Assembly: GCF_937873615.1 (NCBI RefSeq)
Contig: NZ_CALMYP010000067.1
Coordinates: forward strand, 1 to 64,000
From: an uncultured Paracoccus sp.
Lineage (GTDB): Bacteria; Pseudomonadota; Alphaproteobacteria; Rhodobacterales; Rhodobacteraceae
DNA length: 64,000 bases
Direction of reading: 5' to 3'
The notes below the pieces were generated by a model. It was not told the DNA's origin. It searched no databases and was given only the letters and a program-made list of their open reading frames with translations. The position numbers and the translations under genes were made by a program. Below are positions 21,471-33,439 of the stretch, in pieces (the first letter of the stretch is position 1; every line of letters starts with the position of its first letter).

Positions 21471-22523
21471 TCATGTTCCTTTCCACGCGTCTTCCCAAGG
21501 CCCCGGACCGGGGGTCGGGATGGCATCGAAGGTCACGCCGGCGTCGACGATGCGGACATCGCTTGCGATGTCGGACGCAGGCACAGCCCAGTTTGAGCCG
21601 TCAAGATTGCCCCTGAAATGCAGCCCAACGACCGAGCCGCTGTCGATATCTACCACCGCGCTGCCGGAATTGCCCGTCAGGGTCGAGCAATCGTGCCCGA
21701 GGAAGCGCCCGGTTCTGCCATTGATATTGCGGATCTCAACCGAGCCGACGATGCCGGGCGACAGGTGCTTGGTGTCAAATTCGGAAATCGTCGCGTTTTG
21801 CAGCGCCACGTCCTCTTCTGAATTTTTAGAGGGATAGCCGACAACCACCACCCGCGCATCGTCGGCTCCGGCGGCATCGGCGACCGACAGGGCCAGCGGC
21901 TCGGCGCCATCCGGCTTGCCCTCGATGCGCAACAGCGCGAGGTCGAACCAGGGATGGCGCATGACGATCCGCGTCACCGCTCGCGAGGCCGTCGGATCGG
22001 TGTCCCAGCGGTCCCTCTCGCGGCAGAAATTGACGCGTACAGAATATCCGGGGCGGATATAGGGGCCAAAGACCTCGTGGTTTCCGGAAAATACGGAGGC
22101 GACATGGTTGTTCGTCATCACGAGGTCATCGGCGACCAGGAAGCAACTGCCGTATTTCTGGAATTCTGCGCCCGAGGAATACTCGACTCGCGCCGTCGCG
22201 CGGCAGATGGGTTCGAGACGCGCATGGGCGGCAGGTTCGTTGAGGTCGGTCCAGAGCGGCCCCTCGATATGTTCAGGCAGGTCATTCAGCACCGGGGCTG
22301 CCGGCTGCATGAATATCGAACGCAAGACCATCTGTTCGGATTCGCTCAACTCCTCGCCCTGCTGCAATCGCTGGTGCAGCCGTTCGACCCGATCCGGATC
22401 GAGCCGGCGCTGTTCGAGCATCCGGGGCGAGACAATCTTGGCAAGTGGCTTGCCGGCGAGCCGCCTCAGCGTCTTGGGTTGGATCGCAATCGGGCGGCGA
22501 GGACGGGTCGGAAGATCCTGCAT
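21471..22523 (-). CDS. Trypsin-like (V8-type) serine protease without a signal peptide
   Basis: A 350-residue protein with an N-terminal ~110-residue basic, charged region and a C-terminal chymotrypsin-fold protease. The triad is visible: His140 in LVMTNNHVAS, Asp194 in PWFDLALLRI, and Ser286 in TLTGNSGSAVVD, the GNSGS arrangement of staphylococcal V8-like endopeptidases. No signal peptide or membrane span is seen, so it probably acts inside the cell or is exported by another route. The start follows AAAGGAG. It is divergent from the multicopper oxidase operon, sharing a 144-bp intergenic region. Target proteins are unknown. Confidence 0.82.
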   Translation of the reverse strand: MQDLPTRPRRPIAIQPKTLRRLAGKPLAKIVSPRMLEQRRLDPDRVERLHQRLQQGEELSESEQMVLRSIFMQPAAPVLNDLPEHIEGPLWTDLNEPAAHARLEPICRATARVEYSSGAEFQKYGSCFLVADDLVMTNNHVASVFSGNHEVFGPYIRPGYSVRVNFCRERDRWDTDPTASRAVTRIVMRHPWFDLALLRIEGKPDGAEPLALSVADAAGADDARVVVVGYPSKNSEEDVALQNATISEFDTKHLSPGIVGSVEIRNINGRTGRFLGHDCSTLTGNSGSAVVDIDSGSVVGLHFRGNLDGSNWAVPASDIASDVRIVDAGVTFDAIPTPGPGPWEDAWKGT

Positions 22524-22667: not shown

Positions 22668-25600
22668 ATGGACCGATTTGTACATTTTGTCGCTGTCTCG
22701 CTTCTGTCTGCGTGGCTGATGCCCGACGCTCTGCATGCCGCCGATTCTCAGGTGCAGACGGGCGGCCAGACCACAGCCGACGCGATGGATTGCGCGCCCA
22801 TTCACGCAAAGTTCGCGGAGTTCACGGATCTCAAGCTAGATCGGACGGTCTGCGCCGATGTCGTCGCCCTGGACCAGACGCTGGTTTACAACCGCTTCGG
22901 CTCGTTCAACCCTTATGGCATGATCTTCGCGCTGAGGCGCGATGTGGCTTCGATGGACGAGGCGCCCAAAAGTTTTACCGCCGATGCCTGCGACGCATTT
23001 CTTGGCACCGAGGCCGGTGGCGGCGACCTGGTCGCGGGCAACGTGCGTCTGAAGGATTGCAAGCGACCGCGCCCGTTGACCCTTCGCGCCAATGTCGGCG
23101 ACTTGCTGCATGTGCGGCTCGACAACCTGTTGCGCCACGAGGCGCCGGGGATTTCCGAAACCTTCTGCCGGAGCACGCCGGACGGCGCCGACAACCTGTT
23201 CAAGACCTTGCGCGATTGGGTGGCCTGGGGCGACGCGAGCCGTGTCAAACATGGCGAGGCGCTTTGCGAAGCCGGTTCGGCGGCGCAATCGCCCGGCGCG
23301 GCGCCCGAAGGCGGCGACTGGCCGCGCACGCGTGGCGTTAATTTCGCCATCCAGGGGCTGAGGGCCGTCAACATCAACGGCAGCCAGGCGGACAACCGTT
23401 GCGTCGGCCTGGCGCCGGTCAAGCAGGGCTGGCCGGTCGATTGCTACTACGCGGTAGAGCGCGAGGGACCGTATTTTCTGGCCTCGACCGCGGCGCCTTC
23501 GGGGGGCGAGGGCGATGGCGGCTCGCTGACGCATGGGCTTTTCGGCGCCGTGGTGGCCGAACCTGCGGGAACGCGCTGGTATCGCAGCCAGGTCACGCGC
23601 GCCGCTTTCGACGCCGCCTGGGAGGTGACGCGTGCAAGTGACGGTCGGCTCGATGCCGTGGCCGATGCCGATGCCGATGTGATGAAGCCCTACGAGGCTG
23701 CCGACGACAACGGCGTGCCGATCCTCGATATGCTGATGGATCGGGGCAGCGGCGCGCATGAACTGGTCCATGGCGACCTCAATGCCATCGTCCACCGCGC
23801 GCCCGATGCTGGCGCCGGCGTCATCTATCGCGAGTTCTCGGTGTTTTTTCATGATGAAACGAAAACCTTCGTCACCCGGAATTTCCAGGAGCTTGGCATG
23901 TTTGCCAACGGGCAGCTTGCCGGGGTCAAGGACGGGTTCGCGATCAATTACGGCGCCAGCGGCATGGGGGCGATGCTGGTTGCCAACCGCAAGGGCATCG
24001 GACCTGCTGCCGATTGCATCGAGTGTCTATACGAGGAATTCTTCCTGACCTCGTGGGCCAATGGCGATCCGGCGCTTTTGGAACAGTTCAGCGACGATCC
24101 GTCGAACGTGCATCATTCCTATCTGAACGATCCGGTGGTGTTCCGGAATTTCCACGCCGGCCCCAAGGAAACCCATGTATTCCACCTGCACGCCCATCAG
24201 TGGTTCAGTGGCAACGATACCGGTCGCGGCGCCTATCTCGACTCCCAGACCGTGGCGCCGCAGCAGGGGTTCTCGTACCGCATCTATGGCGGCGGGACGG
24301 AAATCTATCGCCGCGACGACGAAACCCAGAAGGGCTGGTACGACACGCTGGGTTCGGGCAACCGCAATCGCACGGTGGGAGACTCGATCTTCCACTGTCA
24401 CCTCTACCCGCATTTCGCCCAGGGCATGTGGGAGTTGTGGCGCGTCCATGACGTGCTGGAGGACGGCAGCCGTAAGCTGCCCGACGGTCAGCTGGAGCCG
24501 ACCCTGTCCCTGGCCGAGATGGCACCCGAGATCCGCGCCCAGAGCCGCCCCGGCTCGGTCGATCCCACGACCGGTGCCTGGAACGCGCCCGGCCCCGAAG
24601 GTGCGACTGCGCTTGGCACGCCGATCCCGGCGATCGTTCCCCTGCCCGGCCAGCCCTGGCCGGTGCTGCCGTCCTATGGCGACGAGGATGTGACCCCCGA
24701 GCCGGGCGAGATCGCCGACGCTATGCCGGGCTATCCCTTCTACGTCGCGGGCCGTCCCGGCCACCGCCCGCCCCAGGCGCCGATGGACATTGCCCGCAAC
24801 CCCGCGCCTGGCCCAGGCGACGAGTTTCTTGATGGCGGCCTGCCGCGCCATGTGGTGACCGGTGGCGAGCGGCATTTCCCCTTCGAGATCCCCGATCTAG
24901 GCGACGCGCCGACGACCGGGACGTTGGATCAGGCCTTGAATGACCGCACCCGCACGGCGCGCGAGATCACTCAGGAGCAGATCGTCGCCAAGGCGCTAGC
25001 GCTCGGCGACATGACGATGGAGATCGAAAAGGTCAAACTCGACCTGCTGGATTATGACGGAACACCCCTGGAACGCGCCGCGATGGCGTTCCATCACGAC
25101 GGCGCCGGGCTGACCCTGCGCGACGCCAAAGGCAATCTGACGGCTTTCGACACCGTGCTCGGGGGATATGCTTCGCCCGGCGGGATCTATTCGGTCAATG
25201 GTGCCCCGCCGAAACCCGGCGCGCCCTTTGCCGATCCCTGCGGCGCGCCCGATCAACTTGGCACGATCACCGACTCGGGCGGAGGCTATAGCCACTTGGG
25301 CCGACCAGTGTTCTTCGTGAACGGTGACATCGACCCGAGCATCCCCATAGCAGAGGCCGATCGCGCGGCGGCCGGGGCAATGCAGGTGACGGCTTGGGTC
25401 CGCCGCCTCGCCCCCGGTGCCAAGCCAGAGGACCGGCCCCGGCTTTACACCGTCGATCCCGGCGGCAACCAGGTCGAGATCACTGGCCCGGTTCAGATTG
25501 TCGAGGATGATCCATTCCTGACGAGCACCGAGATCGCGGGCGCCTTCACTGCCGATCCGGCGGTCGTCGGCTATCGTCGCTACGAGGCTTCGGCGGTGCA

Positions 25601-28600
25601 GCTGGATCTGGTGACAAACCGCGCCGGCTGGCACGATCCGCAGGCGCGCATCAACGTACTGAGCGCCAATTCCGGGCGCTACAAGACCGGCCTTGGCTTC
25701 GACTACGGGACCGCTCAGGGGCGGTTCTCGCCCGTCATCAGCGCCAGCGAGGAGCCGTTCTTCTTCCGCGCGGTCTCTGGCGAATGCATCGAGTTTCGCC
25801 ATACCAACGAATTGCCCAAAGAGCTGGAGCTTGACGATTTCCAGATCAAGACACCGACCGACACCATCGGCCAGCACATCCATCTGGTGAAGTTCGACGT
25901 GACCTCGTCTGACGGATCTGGCAACGGCTTCAACTATGAGGACGGCACACTGGCCCCCGACGAGATCGCCCACCGCATCTGCGCGGCAAAGAACGCCGAA
26001 ATGGAGACGACGGGCGAACGCGCGCCCTCGGCACTGGAACTGCGCGAGGTGCCGGGCTTATGCGTCGAGAAAGACGGGGTGTGGCATGTCAGCGAGGATT
26101 TCAAGGACATCTGGCGGCGCGAGATGCAGGCCGATACCAACCGCAACCTTTTCCAGACCACGGTGCAGCGTTGGTTCGCCGACCCGATCCTGAGCGCCAC
26201 CCGCGTTGAAGGCGATGGCGATGGAGGCCTGGCCGACCGCACGCTCAAGACCGTCTTCAGCCACGACCATTTCGGCCCCTCGTCGATCCAGCAGCACGGA
26301 TTTTATACCGCTCTCGTGATCGAACCGCAGCGCTCGATCACCTGCGCACCCGAGAGCAACGGCACCGGCGAGACCTGCACCGACCAACGCAACGACCGCG
26401 CACTGGTTCAGTCGGATGATCGCGACGTGGGCGCGCGCAAGGTAATCTCGGATCGGGACGTGATTGACCGCTATGACGCTTCGTTGCTCAGCGTCAAGGG
26501 TCTGGCCGCCGCGCCCGGCCCCGATTCCATCGAGGACCGCACCTATCGCGAGTTCGCTCTGGCCGTGGCGGATTTCGCGGTGCTCTATGACCCGCGCGAC
26601 CGCATGACTCCGCAGGAATTCGAAGTCGCTTTGGACGATCGCCAGGGGGCCGGTTTCAAAGGTATGGGAACGCTTGTCTGCGAGGCTCGCCACCAGGGCG
26701 ACCCCGTGGCACTGGCCGCAATCTGCCACTCCGAAATCAAGAAGGACGAATTGAACCCCGGCCACTTCTTCGCGCCGAGCGGCAATGCACCACCATCCTG
26801 GGTCGCAGCAGGACGTCCGGGCGACCTGCCGGCCCATATCGCCGGGACCTCGGCGTTGATTACAGACGAAGAACTGGCCGGCTTGAAGAATTGGATGACC
26901 AGTTATCGCCAGATGGCCGCCGGATATGCCCCTGGCCCAGGGGCGCCGATGGCGAAACCCGTGGTCGCGCCGCAGCGGCCCGAAAGCATCTCGGTCGACC
27001 ATCACGACCCCTATCTGGTCAACTACCGGGGCGAGCCGATCCCACTGCGTGTCGGGGAGGGCATAAATTCGGGCGAGGATTGCGCCTTGAAGGCGCCGGA
27101 ATATTGGGTGCCGGAGCTGGCATCGGGCGTCACCGAGACCTGTTCGGTCGCGCGTCAGAGACCGGGTGAGGCCGGTGATATGGCGAACGTGTTTCTGTCC
27201 CCGGTCCACGGCGACCCCGCGACCCCGGTATTTGAAACCATGTCGGGCGACAAGGTGCAGTTCCGGCTGATCCAGGGCGCGCAGGAGGTGCAGCACACCT
27301 TCACGCTTGAAGGCTATACCTGGCCGCGCCATATCGACCAGCACTTCCCCGCCGGGTATCCGATCGGCGGTGACCTGACGCCGGACGGCACGCTGACCAT
27401 TGCCTGTTCGCGTCTGGCCGAGGCGCGCGCTGGACGGCCCGACCAGTATTCGACATGGCTCAGGCTTGGCCCCCTCGGCTTTGCTGCCCCCGCCGATCAG
27501 GCCTATTGGAGCGACTACGAGGAATATCTGGCCGATTGCTTCAACGCCACCGGGCGCGTTCCCGCCCAGGAAATCGGCATCTCGGAACATTTCGAGTTCC
27601 AGGGCGTGTTCAGGCAAGAGGCCTCGGGGCTGGAATTCAGGCGCCCCCCCAACTCAGAGTTCCAGGCCATGTTCAGGCGAGACGACTCGGGGCAAAAAGC
27701 CGCGCCGGCCATCAACCCAGACGTGCTTCAGGACCGGCCCTCGGATACGCTGATGCATTTCGGTTCAGTCGATGCCTTGTGGAACGGTGCCTGGGGGCTC
27801 TTCCGTGTCCACAAGACGCGCGCGGCGACCTGCGGATACCGCATCGCGGCGATGGTTCCGCCCCCCACCGATCGTGGGGATGCCATGGACGAATGCCTGG
27901 CTGACCTGTCGGTATACGCGCTGAGTGGCAGTTCTGCGGCGGTTCCCGGCGGCGATGTGCTGGAGTTACCACCCACCCAGGTGTTCGGCTGCGCGCCGGG
28001 CGCGCCCCGCATCCACGCCGCCGCCGTCGCCATCGAGGCCAGCGCCGTCTTCGGCAAGCTGGATGAGGCGGGCGATTGGGGCACGCCCTATGACAAAGGC
28101 CATTACGACCGGAACGGGCTGTTCCTGGCCCTGGTCGATCCGCGGGTGCTGATCGACCCCGCTGATCCGGCCAGCGTCACGCCCGAGGCGCTGAACCGTC
28201 CCGAGACCTGGGACGGAATTCCGCTGTCGCGGATCACCAAGGCGATCAACGACGCCTATGTGCGCCCCGAACCCTTCGTCTTGTCGGTCAACGCGGGCGA
28301 TTGCGTGAACCTGGCGGTTCTGAACGCACTGCGCGACACCGGCGAGGGTGACCCGAGCGGGCTGTGGGACGATCTGGGGGATGCGCGGATGCCCCAGATC
28401 ACACCGCTCAATGTCGAACCCGTCTGGAGTGAAAGCGACGGTGGGCACAACAGCCCCGGTACCTTCGATCAGCGCGAGACGGTGAACCTCAGGCCCTCGT
28501 CGCGGCTGGCGCTGTCGATGCCGCTCCCTGTGCTGAACCATCGTCAGAACGTGGCCATGCCGATCGGCGGCAACGTCACCTGGGCGCTGGCGGGCATTCC

Positions 28601-29885
28601 CTCTGCAGGCGATCCGGCGCTCAGGCTATGCACTGGGTCGAACGGCTGCACCGACACTCCGGATGCGCCGCGTCAGAGCCAGATCGAGTTGCTGACGTTT
28701 TACGCCGGGCGCGCCTCGGCGCCGAAGGATCTGGATTTCGATCCATTCGCGCGTGTTGCGAGCGCTTTTGAGGCTGCCTGGAACTCGGAGGATCCGGCTT
28801 GGAGCGGGCTGCGTCGCGCGGCCGAGGCCGAGGGGCTGAACGGCATTAGCAAGGTGCTTAAGAGCGAGCAGGCGGACGCTGTCTTCACGGTCGCGGGCCG
28901 ACCGATAGACATCAATGTCTTTGCCTCTGGCGAGCGAAAGAACATGCGCGATGTCCTGCCGCAATCCCAACACAAGGCGCTGCAGGACAAGATCAACGAG
29001 CTGACCGAGACGGCCCGGGCGAAGATCGTCGAGGATGTTCACTTCATCCCCTATGCCTATGGCGCCCTTCCGGTGAAATCGCTGGGCGACGTGGTCGGGC
29101 ACGGAACGCATGGTCTGTTCGGCTCGCTGAATGTCATGCCGCGAAGCGCAAAGCTGACTTCGGGTCCGGAGCGCATCGCCATCGCGCCCAATACCTTCGT
29201 CATTGCGCCGGGCGCGGCGGCGCGGCCCTGGGTCAGCCGGATCGAGACGACGCTAGGGGACCAGCCCCACGCCATCCGCCAGTTCACGCTGTTCTGGCAG
29301 GACGGGCTGAACCTGCGCGACAACGACTCGCTGGACATTTTCCGGGGTTTTCTGCCGCCGGGCAAAACCGTGCCAATTTCGCCCAAGCTGGTCGCCGAAT
29401 GCGAGGTCTGCGACGACAGTTACGACCTGGGCGACCAGGGCGTGAACTATGGCAGCGCGAGCTTCGCGCGCGCCCTTCGCGGCGTGAACGGCAATGCGAC
29501 GTCCGAACGGCATTACAACCTGAATGCCCTCGACTTCGGCGAGGGCGTCTTCAAAGCGGACGAGGCCACGCCGGTTCTGCGCGCCGAAGCCGGCGAAGAA
29601 GTGGTGATCCACCTCGTCCACCCGGGCGGGCGGGCGCGCCAACGCGCGTTCGTCACCATCGCGCAGGATTACCATGACTTGTTCCCAGGCTTCGGCTTTC
29701 CGCATTCGGGGCTTCTGGCGCCGGGTAAATCAATGACCGCCAGCCTGACGAGGGTGATGGCTCCGGGCTGTTACCTGTGGTTCGACGGGCCTTTGCACCT
29801 GCGCTCGGGCGGCACCTGGGGCCTTCTGGATGTCGTGGGCGCGGGACAGGCGGAGGACAAAAGTGTCTCGCGCTGCGACCATTAG
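22668..29885 (+). CDS. Giant secreted multicopper oxidase (2405 residues)
   Basis: A 2405-residue protein with a Sec signal peptide (MDRFVHFVAVSLLSAWLMPD, cleavage near ALHA) and several cupredoxin-like repeats. Copper motifs: HVFHLH (503-508; motif 3), HCHLYPHFAQGM (576-587; motif 4 with Cys577, His582 and axial Met587), GQHIH (His1070, His1072; motif 1) and FSHDHFGPSSIQQHG (His1199, His1201; motif 2). All ligands for one type 1 site and one trinuclear site are thus present, but in the order 3-4-1-2. Other cupredoxin-like segments near 289, 1543, 1740 and 2145 lack complete ligand sets. Large bacterial multicopper oxidases include the Mn(II)-oxidising MnxG, MofA and McoA proteins; this is the best-known comparable class, so Mn(II) oxidation is a hypothesis. 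Genes for a copper chaperone and a cytochrome c follow in the same operon. Confidence 0.85.
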   Translation: MDRFVHFVAVSLLSAWLMPDALHAADSQVQTGGQTTADAMDCAPIHAKFAEFTDLKLDRTVCADVVALDQTLVYNRFGSFNPYGMIFALRRDVASMDEAPKSFTADACDAFLGTEAGGGDLVAGNVRLKDCKRPRPLTLRANVGDLLHVRLDNLLRHEAPGISETFCRSTPDGADNLFKTLRDWVAWGDASRVKHGEALCEAGSAAQSPGAAPEGGDWPRTRGVNFAIQGLRAVNINGSQADNRCVGLAPVKQGWPVDCYYAVEREGPYFLASTAAPSGGEGDGGSLTHGLFGAVVAEPAGTRWYRSQVTRAAFDAAWEVTRASDGRLDAVADADADVMKPYEAADDNGVPILDMLMDRGSGAHELVHGDLNAIVHRAPDAGAGVIYREFSVFFHDETKTFVTRNFQELGMFANGQLAGVKDGFAINYGASGMGAMLVANRKGIGPAADCIECLYEEFFLTSWANGDPALLEQFSDDPSNVHHSYLNDPVVFRNFHAGPKETHVFHLHAHQWFSGNDTGRGAYLDSQTVAPQQGFSYRIYGGGTEIYRRDDETQKGWYDTLGSGNRNRTVGDSIFHCHLYPHFAQGMWELWRVHDVLEDGSRKLPDGQLEPTLSLAEMAPEIRAQSRPGSVDPTTGAWNAPGPEGATALGTPIPAIVPLPGQPWPVLPSYGDEDVTPEPGEIADAMPGYPFYVAGRPGHRPPQAPMDIARNPAPGPGDEFLDGGLPRHVVTGGERHFPFEIPDLGDAPTTGTLDQALNDRTRTAREITQEQIVAKALALGDMTMEIEKVKLDLLDYDGTPLERAAMAFHHDGAGLTLRDAKGNLTAFDTVLGGYASPGGIYSVNGAPPKPGAPFADPCGAPDQLGTITDSGGGYSHLGRPVFFVNGDIDPSIPIAEADRAAAGAMQVTAWVRRLAPGAKPEDRPRLYTVDPGGNQVEITGPVQIVEDDPFLTSTEIAGAFTADPAVVGYRRYEASAVQLDLVTNRAGWHDPQARINVLSANSGRYKTGLGFDYGTAQGRFSPVISASEEPFFFRAVSGECIEFRHTNELPKELELDDFQIKTPTDTIGQHIHLVKFDVTSSDGSGNGFNYEDGTLAPDEIAHRICAAKNAEMETTGERAPSALELREVPGLCVEKDGVWHVSEDFKDIWRREMQADTNRNLFQTTVQRWFADPILSATRVEGDGDGGLADRTLKTVFSHDHFGPSSIQQHGFYTALVIEPQRSITCAPESNGTGETCTDQRNDRALVQSDDRDVGARKVISDRDVIDRYDASLLSVKGLAAAPGPDSIEDRTYREFALAVADFAVLYDPRDRMTPQEFEVALDDRQGAGFKGMGTLVCEARHQGDPVALAAICHSEIKKDELNPGHFFAPSGNAPPSWVAAGRPGDLPAHIAGTSALITDEELAGLKNWMTSYRQMAAGYAPGPGAPMAKPVVAPQRPESISVDHHDPYLVNYRGEPIPLRVGEGINSGEDCALKAPEYWVPELASGVTETCSVARQRPGEAGDMANVFLSPVHGDPATPVFETMSGDKVQFRLIQGAQEVQHTFTLEGYTWPRHIDQHFPAGYPIGGDLTPDGTLTIACSRLAEARAGRPDQYSTWLRLGPLGFAAPADQAYWSDYEEYLADCFNATGRVPAQEIGISEHFEFQGVFRQEASGLEFRRPPNSEFQAMFRRDDSGQKAAPAINPDVLQDRPSDTLMHFGSVDALWNGAWGLFRVHKTRAATCGYRIAAMVPPPTDRGDAMDECLADLSVYALSGSSAAVPGGDVLELPPTQVFGCAPGAPRIHAAAVAIEASAVFGKLDEAGDWGTPYDKGHYDRNGLFLALVDPRVLIDPADPASVTPEALNRPETWDGIPLSRITKAINDAYVRPEPFVLSVNAGDCVNLAVLNALRDTGEGDPSGLWDDLGDARMPQITPLNVEPVWSESDGGHNSPGTFDQRETVNLRPSSRLALSMPLPVLNHRQNVAMPIGGNVTWALAGIPSAGDPALRLCTGSNGCTDTPDAPRQSQIELLTFYAGRASAPKDLDFDPFARVASAFEAAWNSEDPAWSGLRRAAEAEGLNGISKVLKSEQADAVFTVAGRPIDINVFASGERKNMRDVLPQSQHKALQDKINELTETARAKIVEDVHFIPYAYGALPVKSLGDVVGHGTHGLFGSLNVMPRSAKLTSGPERIAIAPNTFVIAPGAAARPWVSRIETTLGDQPHAIRQFTLFWQDGLNLRDNDSLDIFRGFLPPGKTVPISPKLVAECEVCDDSYDLGDQGVNYGSASFARALRGVNGNATSERHYNLNALDFGEGVFKADEATPVLRAEAGEEVVIHLVHPGGRARQRAFVTIAQDYHDLFPGFGFPHSGLLAPGKSMTASLTRVMAPGCYLWFDGPLHLRSGGTWGLLDVVGAGQAEDKSVSRCDH
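27594..27719 (+). repeat. In-frame 63-bp tandem duplication inside the oxidase gene
   Basis: Copies start at 27594 and 27657, exactly 63 bp (21 codons) apart. The first 36 bases match at 31 positions, encoding EFQGVFRQEASG and EFQAMFRRDDSG. TTCAGGC recurs a third time between them. The duplication lies at residues 1643-1684, in a linker between cupredoxin-like domains. Confidence 0.7.
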
Positions 29886-31683
29886 GGCGGGGATGCTGGC
29901 CTTCGCCTTGGCCGGCGCGGGCGGTGCGGCAGGTGCCGAAGAATCCGCGCGCGCCAGTCTGGCCGCCGAACTGGCGACTTCCGACCCCGTGACGGGCCGC
30001 ACCATCCGCGTCGAGGCGGGGCAGCCCTTTCGCCTGTCGGCCATGCTTACCGACGTCACCACCGGGCGGGCACCGCGCGGCGTGGCGCTGGCGGGGTGGA
30101 TTCGCGCCGTCGTCGCCGGCAATTCCGATTGCAGGGACGCCGCCCGCGCCTTTCGCGTGACCGCAGAGGCTCCGTTCGGGGCCACCGATCTGAACGGCAT
30201 TCTGCTGGTCTCGGTCAACGAGGACGCCAGTGTAGGCGTCATCGACCCAAAGCTGAACCTGAAGTCGTCGAACATGATCGCGGCAGCACGACTGGATGCG
30301 CCGCCCGTGGCGATGGCGGTTGATCCCGAAAGCTTCCGCGCCTTTTTCGTGCTGCCCGACGCGCAGGGTATCGTTGTGATCTCGATCCTGGATGGCGCGC
30401 AGGAGGTCTTGTTATCCGACATGGCGCTTTCGGATGTCGTCGCCCGGGGAGGGCGGGTATGGCTGGGACGAGAGGACGGCGCCATCCTCGCCACCGACGC
30501 GCCCGAGGCGGCGCAGGTGATCGGATTGGGCGGGGTGCGGTTTCGCGCCTCGTCCGAACCCGACAGCCCGCTCGTTGCGGCCTTTGGCGCGGGTGGCGGG
30601 CTAAGTGTGTTCGACGCAGCTACAGGACGCACCGTGTTCGAGCGCGCTCGGTACGAGGCCTTGGCCGATCTCGCACTTCTGGCCGACGGCACGGTGCTTA
30701 GTCTGCCCAAGGATGGTGACGTGATGCGCATCGTCTATGGCGACGCGCCCGATCATGCAGTTGATGTGCCGCTCGGGCTACGGGCTGGGCGCATAACCGC
30801 CAGCCCCGATGGCCGCCATGCCATCGCCTATGCTCCGGCGGGCGCGGGCGCGGTGGTGATCGACGTGGTGCGCGGCGAGGTGGTGCAGCCGCTTGCATTC
30901 ACTCAGGGCGGGATCAGCGACGTGGCATTTACCGACGAGGCGGCATACCTTCTCAGCCTAGACGGTGGCTTCGCCGGGCTTATCGACCTGGATTCGGTGG
31001 CGCCGGGCCGGGCCGCCCAGATCAGAAAGATCGACCTAGCGCGCAAGGCGGCGGATCCGGTGGCGGGCGAGGGCCTTCTGGTGCCGCTTTGGCCTTCGCC
31101 TCAGGTGATCGCGGTGTCGCCCGAGACCCAGACCGGCTGGATCCTGCACGACAACCAGGCGGTCGGAGAGATGCCGCCGATGGACTCGGTCGGCCTGAGG
31201 GGCGGTGTGCCCGCCCGCCTCGCCGTGCTGGATCGCAGTTTGCGCGAGGTGGCGCCGGGCCACTTCCAGACCGTCGCCGTCCTGCCGGCGGGCGAGCACG
31301 AGTTGGTCCTGACAACGGGGATCGGCGGCATGACCGCCTGTCTGCCACTGTCGGTCCGGGGTGGGAGCGACGCTCAGGCGATTGAGCCGGTCACACTTGC
31401 ACTGGCCGAGCCCAACGGCCCGCTGATGGCGGGTCAGGACATAAACATCGCGCTGACGTTCCGCGACCGCAAGGGCGCCGTGGTCCCGGTCGAGCGGGCG
31501 GAGTTTCTGGTGCCGAGCCTGGCCTCATCCTGGATCGGCCGCATGAGCCTGTCCCGGTCAGAGGACGGCACGCTCAGGGGCCAAATGCGGTTCCCACATC
31601 CCGGTCCTTTCGTGCTGCAACCCCTTGGGCTGCCGCGCGATCTTTACCTGACAAGCGCCCTTTTGCTGGAGGTCTCGTCATGA
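29863..31683 (+). CDS. Secreted beta-propeller protein of the oxidase operon
   Basis: About 606 residues. I chose GTG 29863, which follows CGGAGGAC; it gives a signal peptide (MLAFALAGAGGAAGA, cleavage after AGA) and overlaps the oxidase stop by 23 bp. An ATG at 29830 is the alternative. The body has repeated short beta-rich units such as PVAMAVDPESFRAFFVL, RITASPDGRHAIAYAP and GISDVAFTDEAAYLLSL, as in YVTN/cytochrome d1-type propellers, then a C-terminal Ig-like region. No CXXCH haem motif is present. It is probably a periplasmic partner or scaffold of the oxidase, but no catalytic function can be assigned. Confidence 0.75.
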   Translation: MSRAATIRAGMLAFALAGAGGAAGAEESARASLAAELATSDPVTGRTIRVEAGQPFRLSAMLTDVTTGRAPRGVALAGWIRAVVAGNSDCRDAARAFRVTAEAPFGATDLNGILLVSVNEDASVGVIDPKLNLKSSNMIAAARLDAPPVAMAVDPESFRAFFVLPDAQGIVVISILDGAQEVLLSDMALSDVVARGGRVWLGREDGAILATDAPEAAQVIGLGGVRFRASSEPDSPLVAAFGAGGGLSVFDAATGRTVFERARYEALADLALLADGTVLSLPKDGDVMRIVYGDAPDHAVDVPLGLRAGRITASPDGRHAIAYAPAGAGAVVIDVVRGEVVQPLAFTQGGISDVAFTDEAAYLLSLDGGFAGLIDLDSVAPGRAAQIRKIDLARKAADPVAGEGLLVPLWPSPQVIAVSPETQTGWILHDNQAVGEMPPMDSVGLRGGVPARLAVLDRSLREVAPGHFQTVAVLPAGEHELVLTTGIGGMTACLPLSVRGGSDAQAIEPVTLALAEPNGPLMAGQDINIALTFRDRKGAVVPVERAEFLVPSLASSWIGRMSLSRSEDGTLRGQMRFPHPGPFVLQPLGLPRDLYLTSALLLEVSS

Positions 31684-32261
31684 TCCGACCACTCACGCTG
31701 ATCTTGGGTCTGGTATTGACCCTTGCCACGCTGGGGTTAGGCGCAGCAGCCAATGGGTTATGGCGCGCCGACCCCGAAAACTTCCGCGCCGAACGGATCC
31801 TCCTGCCGGATGCCACGATGCTTGACAAGTCGGGCACGCCGTTCCGCTTGCGCGGCGACATCGGCGACGACGCGCTGGTCGTCATCAATTTCAGCTACAC
31901 GACCTGCGGATCGATCTGCCCGCTCGGCAACCAGATCCTTCAGTTCGTCGACGAACGGCGGGACGAAATCGGGCGCGAGGTGCATCTGTTGACGATCACC
32001 ATAGACCCGGCCAACGACACCCCCGAGGTCATGCGCGCCTCTGCCGAAGCGTTTGGCGCGAGCGGCAACTGGCACTGGCTGACTGCCGCGCCCGGCGTGA
32101 TCGCCGAGATCCTGCGCGCGGCGGATGCAAGCACGGCGGATATCGAATCGCACGACCCGGTGTTCCTTGTCGGCGATATGGATACGGGGCGTTATTTCCG
32201 GTCGCTGTCGCTGCCGGATGCTGACGAGTTGATTGCGATGCTCGACCGGTTCGATGCCTGA
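31680..32261 (+). CDS. SCO1/SenC-family copper chaperone
   Basis: A 193-residue thioredoxin-fold protein with an N-terminal membrane anchor or signal (about 5-24). It has the copper-binding Cys76-XXX-Cys80 (FSYTTCGSICPLG) and the distal ligand His158 in ESHDPVFLVGD, the full SCO ligand set. SCO proteins deliver copper to, or reduce the copper site of, periplasmic copper enzymes, classically cytochrome oxidase CuA. Here the start overlaps the propeller gene stop (ATGA) within the oxidase operon, so the oxidase is the likely client. No cytochrome oxidase gene is nearby. Confidence 0.88.
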   Translation: MIRPLTLILGLVLTLATLGLGAAANGLWRADPENFRAERILLPDATMLDKSGTPFRLRGDIGDDALVVINFSYTTCGSICPLGNQILQFVDERRDEIGREVHLLTITIDPANDTPEVMRASAEAFGASGNWHWLTAAPGVIAEILRAADASTADIESHDPVFLVGDMDTGRYFRSLSLPDADELIAMLDRFDA

Positions 32262-33439
32262 TGCGCGCTCTGGCGGCAGTCGTGGCCGGGCTTTTGGCCA
32301 TCGACTCCGGTGCGGCGGCCGATCCGGGACGCGCGATTTTTGAAGGCCAGCCGGGCGCGGCTGGCGCTGCCCTGATCGGCAGCGCGCGAGTGCCAATACA
32401 GAAGTTTGCCTGCCGAAACTGCCATCGCCGCGATGGTGAAGGCGGCGGCGAGGGCGACGCGCCGCCGATCACCTGGCAGGCACTGACGCAGCCGACAGAG
32501 GAGCGCCCGGCCTACGACACAAGGGCTTTCGCGCGCGCGCTCTCCACCGGCAAGGCCCCTGGCGGGCGCGATCTGAGCCGCCTCATGCCGCGCTACGATC
32601 TGGATGAAGAGGTGGTCGCGAAGCTGATTGCACATCTGACCAGGCTCCCGGCCGAACAGCGTGCCGGGGTCTTGCCGGACCGCATTGTGCTGGCCGTGCC
32701 GGTTCAGGCGGGTGACCTGCGCCTGGCCAAGGCGCTGGAAGCGGCGATCGTCGCGCGGCAGCCGCCCAACGGGACTCATGGAAGGCGCATCGTGTTGCAG
32801 ATGCTGTCGGGCGACATGCCCGAGATTCTGACAAGCGTCCGTTCCGAAGCCACGGCTGTCCTGTCACCTGTTCACGGTACGGCAGAATTTACAGCAGCAG
32901 GCATACCCGTCCTTTTCCCACTCGCGGCGATTTCCGAGGCCGACGATCCGGAGCTGGTCCGAAGTCTTTATGCAACGCGAGAGCAGTTGCACGCGGCACT
33001 GGCCGAGCGCGCGCGCACAGATGGCTGCAGCCTGGACGACGGGGCCACCGACTGCGCACTGATCGCAGACGGTGGTGGGGCTGTCGTCGGGGACTGGGCG
33101 GACACCACGCGCCTCTATCTGACGGTCGAGAGCGCCCACGCGCTTGGTCCCGCGATTGTCGGGATCGGTGGAACCTTGGTTATCGCAAGACACGAGGCAG
33201 CAACGCTGACACGGGCCGCTGCCACGGAACAGGAACCGTTGGATGTCCATGCAGCACTTGTTGCCGAGATCCTGCTTGACGCACTGACCGTGGCAGGGCG
33301 GGACTTGACGCGTACCGCCTTGATGGAGGCGATCGGCCAAGTCGCTCGGCCGGATCTTGGGCTGAGCTTTCGCCCCGGCGCACCGTCGGGATCGGATGCG
33401 GTGGCGATCTACGTTGTGAATCCGAAGGAAGATCGCTGA
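32261..33439 (+). CDS. Cytochrome c fused to a periplasmic-binding-like domain
   Basis: A 392-residue exported protein. A signal peptide (about 1-20) leads into a mono-haem cytochrome c domain with Cys51-XX-Cys54-His55 (ACRNCHRRDGEGG) and a likely axial Met109 in DLSRLMPRYDLDEEVVAKL. From about 125 to the end it has alternating beta-alpha segments (RIVLAVPVQAGDLRLAKALE, ATAVLSPVHGTAEFTAAGIP) resembling the type I periplasmic-binding fold of Liv-type proteins. Its ATG shares one base with the SCO stop (TGATG). It is a plausible electron acceptor for the oxidase; the binding-like part may sense or hold a ligand. That role is inferred. Confidence 0.75.
   Translation: MRALAAVVAGLLAIDSGAAADPGRAIFEGQPGAAGAALIGSARVPIQKFACRNCHRRDGEGGGEGDAPPITWQALTQPTEERPAYDTRAFARALSTGKAPGGRDLSRLMPRYDLDEEVVAKLIAHLTRLPAEQRAGVLPDRIVLAVPVQAGDLRLAKALEAAIVARQPPNGTHGRRIVLQMLSGDMPEILTSVRSEATAVLSPVHGTAEFTAAGIPVLFPLAAISEADDPELVRSLYATREQLHAALAERARTDGCSLDDGATDCALIADGGGAVVGDWADTTRLYLTVESAHALGPAIVGIGGTLVIARHEAATLTRAAATEQEPLDVHAALVAEILLDALTVAGRDLTRTALMEAIGQVARPDLGLSFRPGAPSGSDAVAIYVVNPKEDR

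Follow-up and report, generated by a model that had tools for sequence, protein, structure and literature searches.

A 2405-residue multicopper oxidase of an uncultured Paracoccus sp. has the copper motif order of the MnxG family

Why would a multicopper oxidase carry its copper motifs in the order 3-4-1-2, and what might such an enzyme oxidize? The question is raised by a 64,000-nucleotide stretch of DNA from an uncultured Paracoccus sp. (contig NZ_CALMYP010000067.1, positions 1 to 64,000; hereafter the window), in which a forward-strand open reading frame (ORF) at 22668-29885 runs for 2405 codons with no internal stop. An earlier reading of the sequence (the original prediction) described a giant multicopper oxidase with permuted motifs, left its substrate and fold open, and saw in it the best candidate for new biology. 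Profile, structure-chain and model matches identify the protein as a six-domain, 2405-residue multicopper oxidase of the MnxG family: a correctly observed and well-conserved enzyme of a kind already known. Its motif permutation has precedent, and its fold is a known one. We think it probable that this is an exported six-domain MnxG-type multicopper oxidase that would use a reduced metal ion, with Mn(II) as the best candidate, as its electron donor.

GC content by codon position in the ORF is 0.79 at the third, 0.67 at the first and 0.49 at the second position, and full-length relatives of similar size are present in other genomes. Judged by eye, the N-terminus resembles a signal peptide, and the protein is probably secreted or exported. 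All four copper motifs, recognized by motif reading and by conservation, lie on the forward strand at the positions first reported: (i) motif C (3), HVFHLHAH, residues 503-510 (24174-24197), which opens with HVFHLH; (ii) motif D (4), HCHLYPHFAQGM, residues 576-587 (24393-24428); (iii) motif A (1), HIH, residues 1070-1072 (25875-25883); and (iv) motif B (2), HDHFGPSSIQQH, residues 1199-1210 (26262-26297), which opens with HDH. Together they contain the complete set of type 1 and type 2/type 3 copper ligands that marks the multicopper oxidase superfamily, and the two pairs of motifs could together form one full copper centre, as had been proposed.

We compared these motifs with 2000 shuffles of the protein. 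HxxHxH occurred in 83 shuffles and HCHxxxHxxxx[ML] in none, so that motifs C and D together appeared in 0 of 2000; HxH occurred in 1701 and HDH in 255. Motifs C and D thus greatly exceed chance expectation; A and B do not when taken singly, and it is conservation that makes them secure. Eight homologues from the same genus, found by whole-protein similarity and with frames chosen on length alone (that is, without motif selection), retain the complete motif set in unchanged order (8/8). Close homologues thus keep the ligands, and this check of the original prediction came out in its favour. A chance arrangement was rejected on the shuffles and the same-genus conservation together. When the comparison is broadened to 67 aligned relatives, Priestia MnxG among them, the ligand positions 503, 506, 508, 576, 577, 578, 582 and 587 are identical in every row, as are 1070, 1072, 1199 and 1201, and H1210 is His in 63. 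The order C-D-A-B holds in 96 of 98 extracted frames, which include a few genes fetched twice; in the two exceptions (loci L063 and L098 in our numbering) a single motif is missing from the extracted frame. Counts over the 67 rows and 98 frames are biased towards intact motifs: HFAQGMW was one of the two patterns of the collection scan, frames were picked from loci on motifs C and D, and alignment rows on C and B, leaving only A unselected. Hence motif A is the only one for which 67/67 counts as fair evidence; the other motifs are supported, though unproven, by this set. In four MnxG-like proteins (L143, L144, L145 and L147), Ile or Val replaces the motif-B His that follows QQ (H1210), and the twelve ligands are intact. 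Just ahead of motif C, a CxxC..EE element (residues 450-457; 24015-24038, forward strand) is invariant in 67/67 rows, Priestia MnxG included, and aligns with a counterpart in the solved MnxG chain 9bxa; it may serve as a disulfide, a structural metal site or part of a substrate path.

We assigned the protein to a family by profile and structure searches. No Pfam model reaches its cut-off on the oxidase, and the sole NCBIfam match is the MnxG equivalog NF041487 (E 7.2e-148). A phmmer search of solved chains likewise returned a single match, MnxG 9bxa_A (E 4.1e-58), in whose alignment HxxHxH, HCH, HIH and HDH follow in the order of the window protein; 9bxa is an H340A variant, and its Ala aligns with H582. 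Profiles of the two protein halves found 9bxa at 6.6e-99 and 2.1e-79, followed by two-domain laccases at best at 9.6e-9 and 3.1e-5, over spans of only about 240-256 residues. The predicted models match 9bxa residues 1-603 and 596-1212 (structure alignments of 64 rows), and in the model of residues 51-1240, the structure prediction that had been called for, the chain is predicted to superpose as one body on MnxG domains D1-D3, a fit of the whole body and not of ligand distances; within that scope, this second check also favours the original prediction. By the phmmer alignment and the models, the window protein shares the MnxG fold. A laccase-like oxidase of organic substrates, such as phenols or aromatic amines, is very improbable, since MnxG is clearly closer and matches in all six domains, and the laccases match only over the short spans just given. 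Cu-oxidase_2 (PF07731) has no match in the window's own genome, compared with matches in 9 of 14 control genomes; because the window oxidase itself falls under the PF07731 cut-off, this negative covers only ordinary laccases of that family.

To describe the architecture, we divided the protein by eye into six segments, knowing where the motifs lie, and compared these profile against profile with HHalign, leaving out rows that covered <60% of a segment (51 to 64 rows kept). In global alignments the odd-numbered domains match one another (D1-D3, D1-D5 and D3-D5 at probabilities of 95.4, 99.3 and 96.8), as do the even-numbered ones (D2-D4, D2-D6 and D4-D6 at 69.0, 96.4 and 98.5); eight of the nine odd-even pairs stay at or below 0.1, and D1-D6 reaches 13.8. 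Local alignments gave 66.7 (D2-D4) up to 98.4 for the six same-type pairs, with partial matches of 77 and 69 columns for D1-D3 and D2-D4, and 0.2 to 1.5 for five odd-even pairs that were rerun, save D5-D6 at 17.8. Because same-type pairs match and odd-even pairs do not, the oxidase is, as judged by profile comparison, three two-domain cupredoxin units in a single chain; D2-D4 is the weakest link of this scheme.

Copper ligands survive in two of these domains, all of which lie on the forward strand and were delimited by HHalign, with row counts for D1, D4, D5 and D6 and the model for D2 to D6. D2 (even type; residues 370-612, 23775-24503; also supported by profiles) holds the type 1 ligands together with one half of the trinuclear site, and D3 (odd type; residues 955-1235, 25530-26372) holds the other half. 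The A/B ligands are lost from D1 (odd type, aligned to D3 and D5; residues 56-345 with bounds set by eye, 22833-23702), where H289 is residual. D4 (even type; residues 1425-1725, 26940-27842) has lost its copper set and keeps H1543 in 67/67 rows; D5 (odd type; residues 1770-2175, 27975-29192) has lost its ligands except for a residual H2148; and D6 (even type; residues 2195-2400, 29250-29867) has lost its ligands. In D1 and D5, the D3 ligands have non-ligand counterparts, apart from H1210, whose equivalents there are H289 and H2148; D2 ligands map to non-ligand residues in D6. When D2 is aligned to D4, H503 corresponds to the invariant H1543 and H576 to H1697 (in the global alignment only; His in 37/67), and C577, H578 and H582 fall in a gap. 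Intact C and D motifs are thus found only in D2 and intact A and B motifs only in D3, in agreement with the earlier view that the remaining cupredoxin domains lack ligand sets. The protein has the three two-domain cupredoxin repeats of the six-domain MnxG type of Vasin 2013, and its sequence also points to the site placement of that type, with a trinuclear site at D2/D3 and type 1 copper only in D2. Circular permutation of a laccase gene was considered and dropped, given the odd-even alternation through all six domains and the linear co-order with MnxG.

A body of three two-domain units has three equivalent interfaces. With the site kept only at the D2/D3 interface, the motifs read 3-4-1-2, and this order is the normal layout of the MnxG family. 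A survey of six-domain oxidases (PMC3600357) places the trinuclear site at D2/D3 and type 1 copper in D2 only in every bacterial six-domain oxidase analysed, and at D2/D3 in green-algal ferroxidases such as Fox1; ceruloplasmin has its trinuclear site at D1/D6 and type 1 sites in D2, D4 and D6. The proteins it lists range in length from 1217 to 2681 aa, among them those of Roseovarius sp. TM1035 (2681 aa), Methylobacterium populi (2493 aa) and Nitrosomonas europaea (1886 aa); mnxG primers that span motif D to motif B have been described elsewhere (PMC3039467). Both the motif order and its explanation are thus already published, and, with entries of 2493 and 2681 aa, the size too lies within the range of the family. 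A literature search on giant multicopper oxidases, or on MnxG with copper binding motifs, gave no match. Of the original prediction, the single centre and the loss of ligands elsewhere stand, while the novelty of the order and the open fold do not. The permutation as new biology was a false lead that is now removed, and a simpler account takes its place: a fused laccase-like trimer that keeps copper at one of three equivalent interfaces.

How widespread is this enzyme? A search of 61 genomes matched nine, namely the window's own and eight of the 36 further genomes of its genus, with none among 24 outside it. A scan with two peptide patterns, one genome per species, returned 562 stretches, 547 of which encode relatives; the best 80 were kept for analysis and come from, among others, Rhodobacteraceae, Rhizobiales, Methylobacterium, nitrifiers, methanotrophs and Meiothermus. 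In a FastTree phylogeny (67 rows, rooted on Priestia MnxG), the window oxidase pairs with Roseovarius pacificus (support 1.0), to which it is 71% identical in the best-matching segment, and the other Paracoccus copies stand apart from it in at least two groups interspersed with other genera. That R. pacificus is nearer to the window oxidase than the Paracoccus copies are suggests horizontal transfer within Rhodobacterales. Paracoccus accounts for 8 of 30 plasmid records with an oxidase match, and it is reasonable to infer that the oxidase has spread between genera, partly via plasmids. Coverage reaches 80% or more in 11 plasmid records, of which 10 were deposited as 'hypothetical protein' and the eleventh is unannotated; no genome in samples of 398 and 369 exceeded the MnxG cut-off. 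Given these labels and the missed Pfam and NCBIfam cut-offs, annotation-led surveys of Mn oxidation may miss such oxidases, even though our two-pattern peptide scan still found 547 stretches. Jiella avicenniae has two oxidase loci (L051 and L058) on two scaffolds with equal match coordinates and identity, which would reflect either duplication of a replicon or an error of assembly.

Three genes follow the oxidase on the same strand. The first (29830-31683) encodes a 617-aa beta-propeller-family protein whose start codon is not settled; as listed among the ORFs, it overlaps the oxidase 3' end by 56 bases. The protein alone has no Pfam match; among 15 aligned members of its family, however, some match beta-propeller Pfam families, and the family profile finds propellers among solved chains, at best 1l0q, a surface layer protein (8.8e-32). 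The second (31680-32261) encodes a 193-aa SCO1/SenC-family protein, likely a copper chaperone (PF02630, E 1.9e-12), and the third (32261-33439) a 392-aa protein with a cytochrome c domain, recognized by family alignment and Pfam. The latter scores 18.4 bits against Cytochrom_C, under the Pfam cut-off of 21.3, but 13/13 scanned family members match this model (E up to 0.1), and CxxCH (51-55) and M109 are invariant in 13/13 aligned members. After removal of duplicates (L042, L071 and L086) from 88 loci, 85 remained; 22 had <4.5 kb downstream, which left 63 testable. The three genes occur in the same order and strand at 43 of these; singly, the propeller was detected at 54, SCO at 48 and the cytochrome at 47. 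Among the other-class MnxG-like loci L143-L147 (E 1e-2), the propeller is found in 5/5, SCO in 4/5 and the cytochrome in 3/5; the neighbours at L147 are on mixed strands and in a different order, and L143 stops shortly past the propeller. None of the three neighbours was detected at E 1e-5 at L076, L078, L079 and L080 (Nitrosomonas) or at L089, L094 and L099 (Nitrospira), and all three are present at L100 (Nitrosomonas mobilis) and L088 (Nitrospira). With nitrifier loci split in this way, the three-gene set is not universal.

The cytochrome raises the alternative that the oxidase has a respiratory partner: electron exchange with cytochrome c would link metal oxidation to the electron-transport chain, in either direction and with any metal substrate. 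The cytochrome c domain found in all 13 scanned members of the cytochrome gene's family, the ordered cytochrome gene at 43/63 loci and the cytochrome c gene that the MofA operon also includes (PMC8218464) speak for it, whereas the cytochrome was undetected at 16/63 testable loci; we regard such a partnership as distinctly unlikely. We give slightly less credence again to a stronger version, in which the large Rhodobacterales and Rhizobiales members (open frames of about 2180-2970 aa) form with propeller, SCO and cytochrome c a distinct oxidase system whose cytochrome couples the copper enzyme to respiration. If true, metal oxidation would conserve energy, or the substrate would be other than manganese.

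In our preferred reading, an exported MnxG-type metal oxidase, the three cupredoxin units would close into one body as in MnxG, keeping a trinuclear copper site only between unit 1 (D2) and unit 2 (D3) and a type 1 site in D2 alone. By analogy with multicopper oxidases in general, on which the ligand roles, copper binding and activity proposed here are modelled, a reduced metal ion would deliver single electrons to the type 1 copper (H503, C577, H582 and M587); the trinuclear cluster (H506, H508, H576, H578, H1070, H1072, H1199 and H1201) would receive them over the HCH bridge and reduce O2 to water. Judging from gene position, the neighbours may be co-transcribed with the oxidase, the SCO1-like protein could aid copper loading, and the beta-propeller and cytochrome c could take part, as partner proteins, in assembly, docking or electron transfer. 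Because it is related to the Mn-oxidizing MnxG, the window enzyme most likely uses O2 to oxidize a low-valent metal, with Mn(II) as the leading candidate. P. putida strains with MnxG alone or McoA alone oxidize Mn(II) and Mn(III) (PMC5906577), and the Bacillus Mnx complex forms Mn oxide (PMC5622069).

Could the same six-domain enzyme instead act on Fe(II) or Cu(I), as a ferroxidase or cuprous oxidase in metal uptake or detoxification? Chlamydomonas Fox1, a multicopper ferroxidase, has an equal D2/D3 site (PMC3600357), an SCO-type gene adjoins the oxidase, and the acidic residues E501, D525 and D572 near the type 1 motifs, which 66, 67 and 67 of the 67 rows conserve, respectively, would fit any metal substrate. 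However, the same three residues are common to MnxG in the 9bxa alignment, and the nearest members known to have been tested for activity are Mn oxidases; we consider Fe(II) or Cu(I) rather unlikely. Several observations weigh against our preferred reading: (i) the NF041487 score of 494 bits is far below the 3100-bit cut-off, so that the protein does not qualify as an equivalog; (ii) in its N-terminal half the protein is 35% identical to Priestia MnxG and 36-40% identical to L143-L145, the nearest Pseudomonas-type relatives (36-42% to four other-class proteins); (iii) Foldseek global TM-scores to 9bxa are modest, at 0.39 and 0.35; (iv) 20 of the 63 testable loci lack at least one of the three downstream genes, and nine of these 20, including Nitrosomonas europaea and Nitrospira metagenome-assembled genomes (MAGs), lack all three at E 1e-5; and (v) our literature search, made largely without subscription journals, found no tested member of the alphaproteobacterial clade. 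Given the missed cut-off and the 35-40% identities, the substrate may differ from that of MnxG. The animal haem peroxidase profile PF03098 has no match in the window's own genome and none in 14 control genomes either, and is uninformative.

Upstream, a divergent trypsin-like peptidase gene of uncertain relevance lies on the reverse strand (21471-22523; PF13365, E 2.2e-20). Similar genes occur at 6 of the 88 loci (L037, L040, L056, L061, L064 and L073), and in Shinella (L150) the corresponding place is taken by a trypsin-like peptidase and one of the S8 family. About 4-9 kb upstream of the oxidase, beyond other genes, there are ABC transporter genes.

How does the window protein compare with known systems? 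Two-domain laccases have the motif order A-B-C-D and assemble as trimers. Such a small laccase folds as one domain pair of the window protein, but has about 280 aa with A-B before C-D, whereas the window protein has 2405 aa and reads C-D-A-B. A triplicated two-domain protein has been proposed as the ancestor of six-domain oxidases (PMC3600357). Ceruloplasmin resembles the window protein in its six cupredoxin domains and single trinuclear site, yet its site is at D1/D6, and the ligand equivalents of D1 and D6 are lost here. Bacillus sp. PL-12 MnxG (9bxa) and Priestia MnxG (L149) share the C-D-A-B order, the six-domain layout, the ligands and CxxC..EE, but have about 1220-1230 aa. Bacillus MnxG works with MnxE and MnxF (PMC5622069), and its flanking genes differ from those of the window; the 107-aa Priestia gene beside MnxG (MnxF by position) had no match in the window's own genome in a search run without a positive control. 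Pseudomonas-type MnxG (NF041487; L143-L145, which we place in Gammaproteobacteria) is related over most of its length and has the same motif order, with a downstream propeller gene in L143-L145 and an SCO gene in L144 and L145, as in the window, but forms a separate tree clade at 36-40% identity; these loci are stand-ins for P. putida MnxG itself. According to PMC8218464, the P. putida mnxG operon holds a beta-propeller lactonase-family gene and an SCO gene, a likeness to the window in gene content. That operon also includes a SurA-like gene, for which Pfam gave no match among the window's three downstream products, and an ABC transporter gene; the window's ABC transporter genes are those well upstream of the oxidase. 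The window protein is absent from the 2013 list of PMC3600357, whose oxidases resemble it by description, with relatives from the listed genera aligned here; by their genera, their size, the D2/D3 trinuclear site and the single type 1 site in D2, they appear to be the same family.
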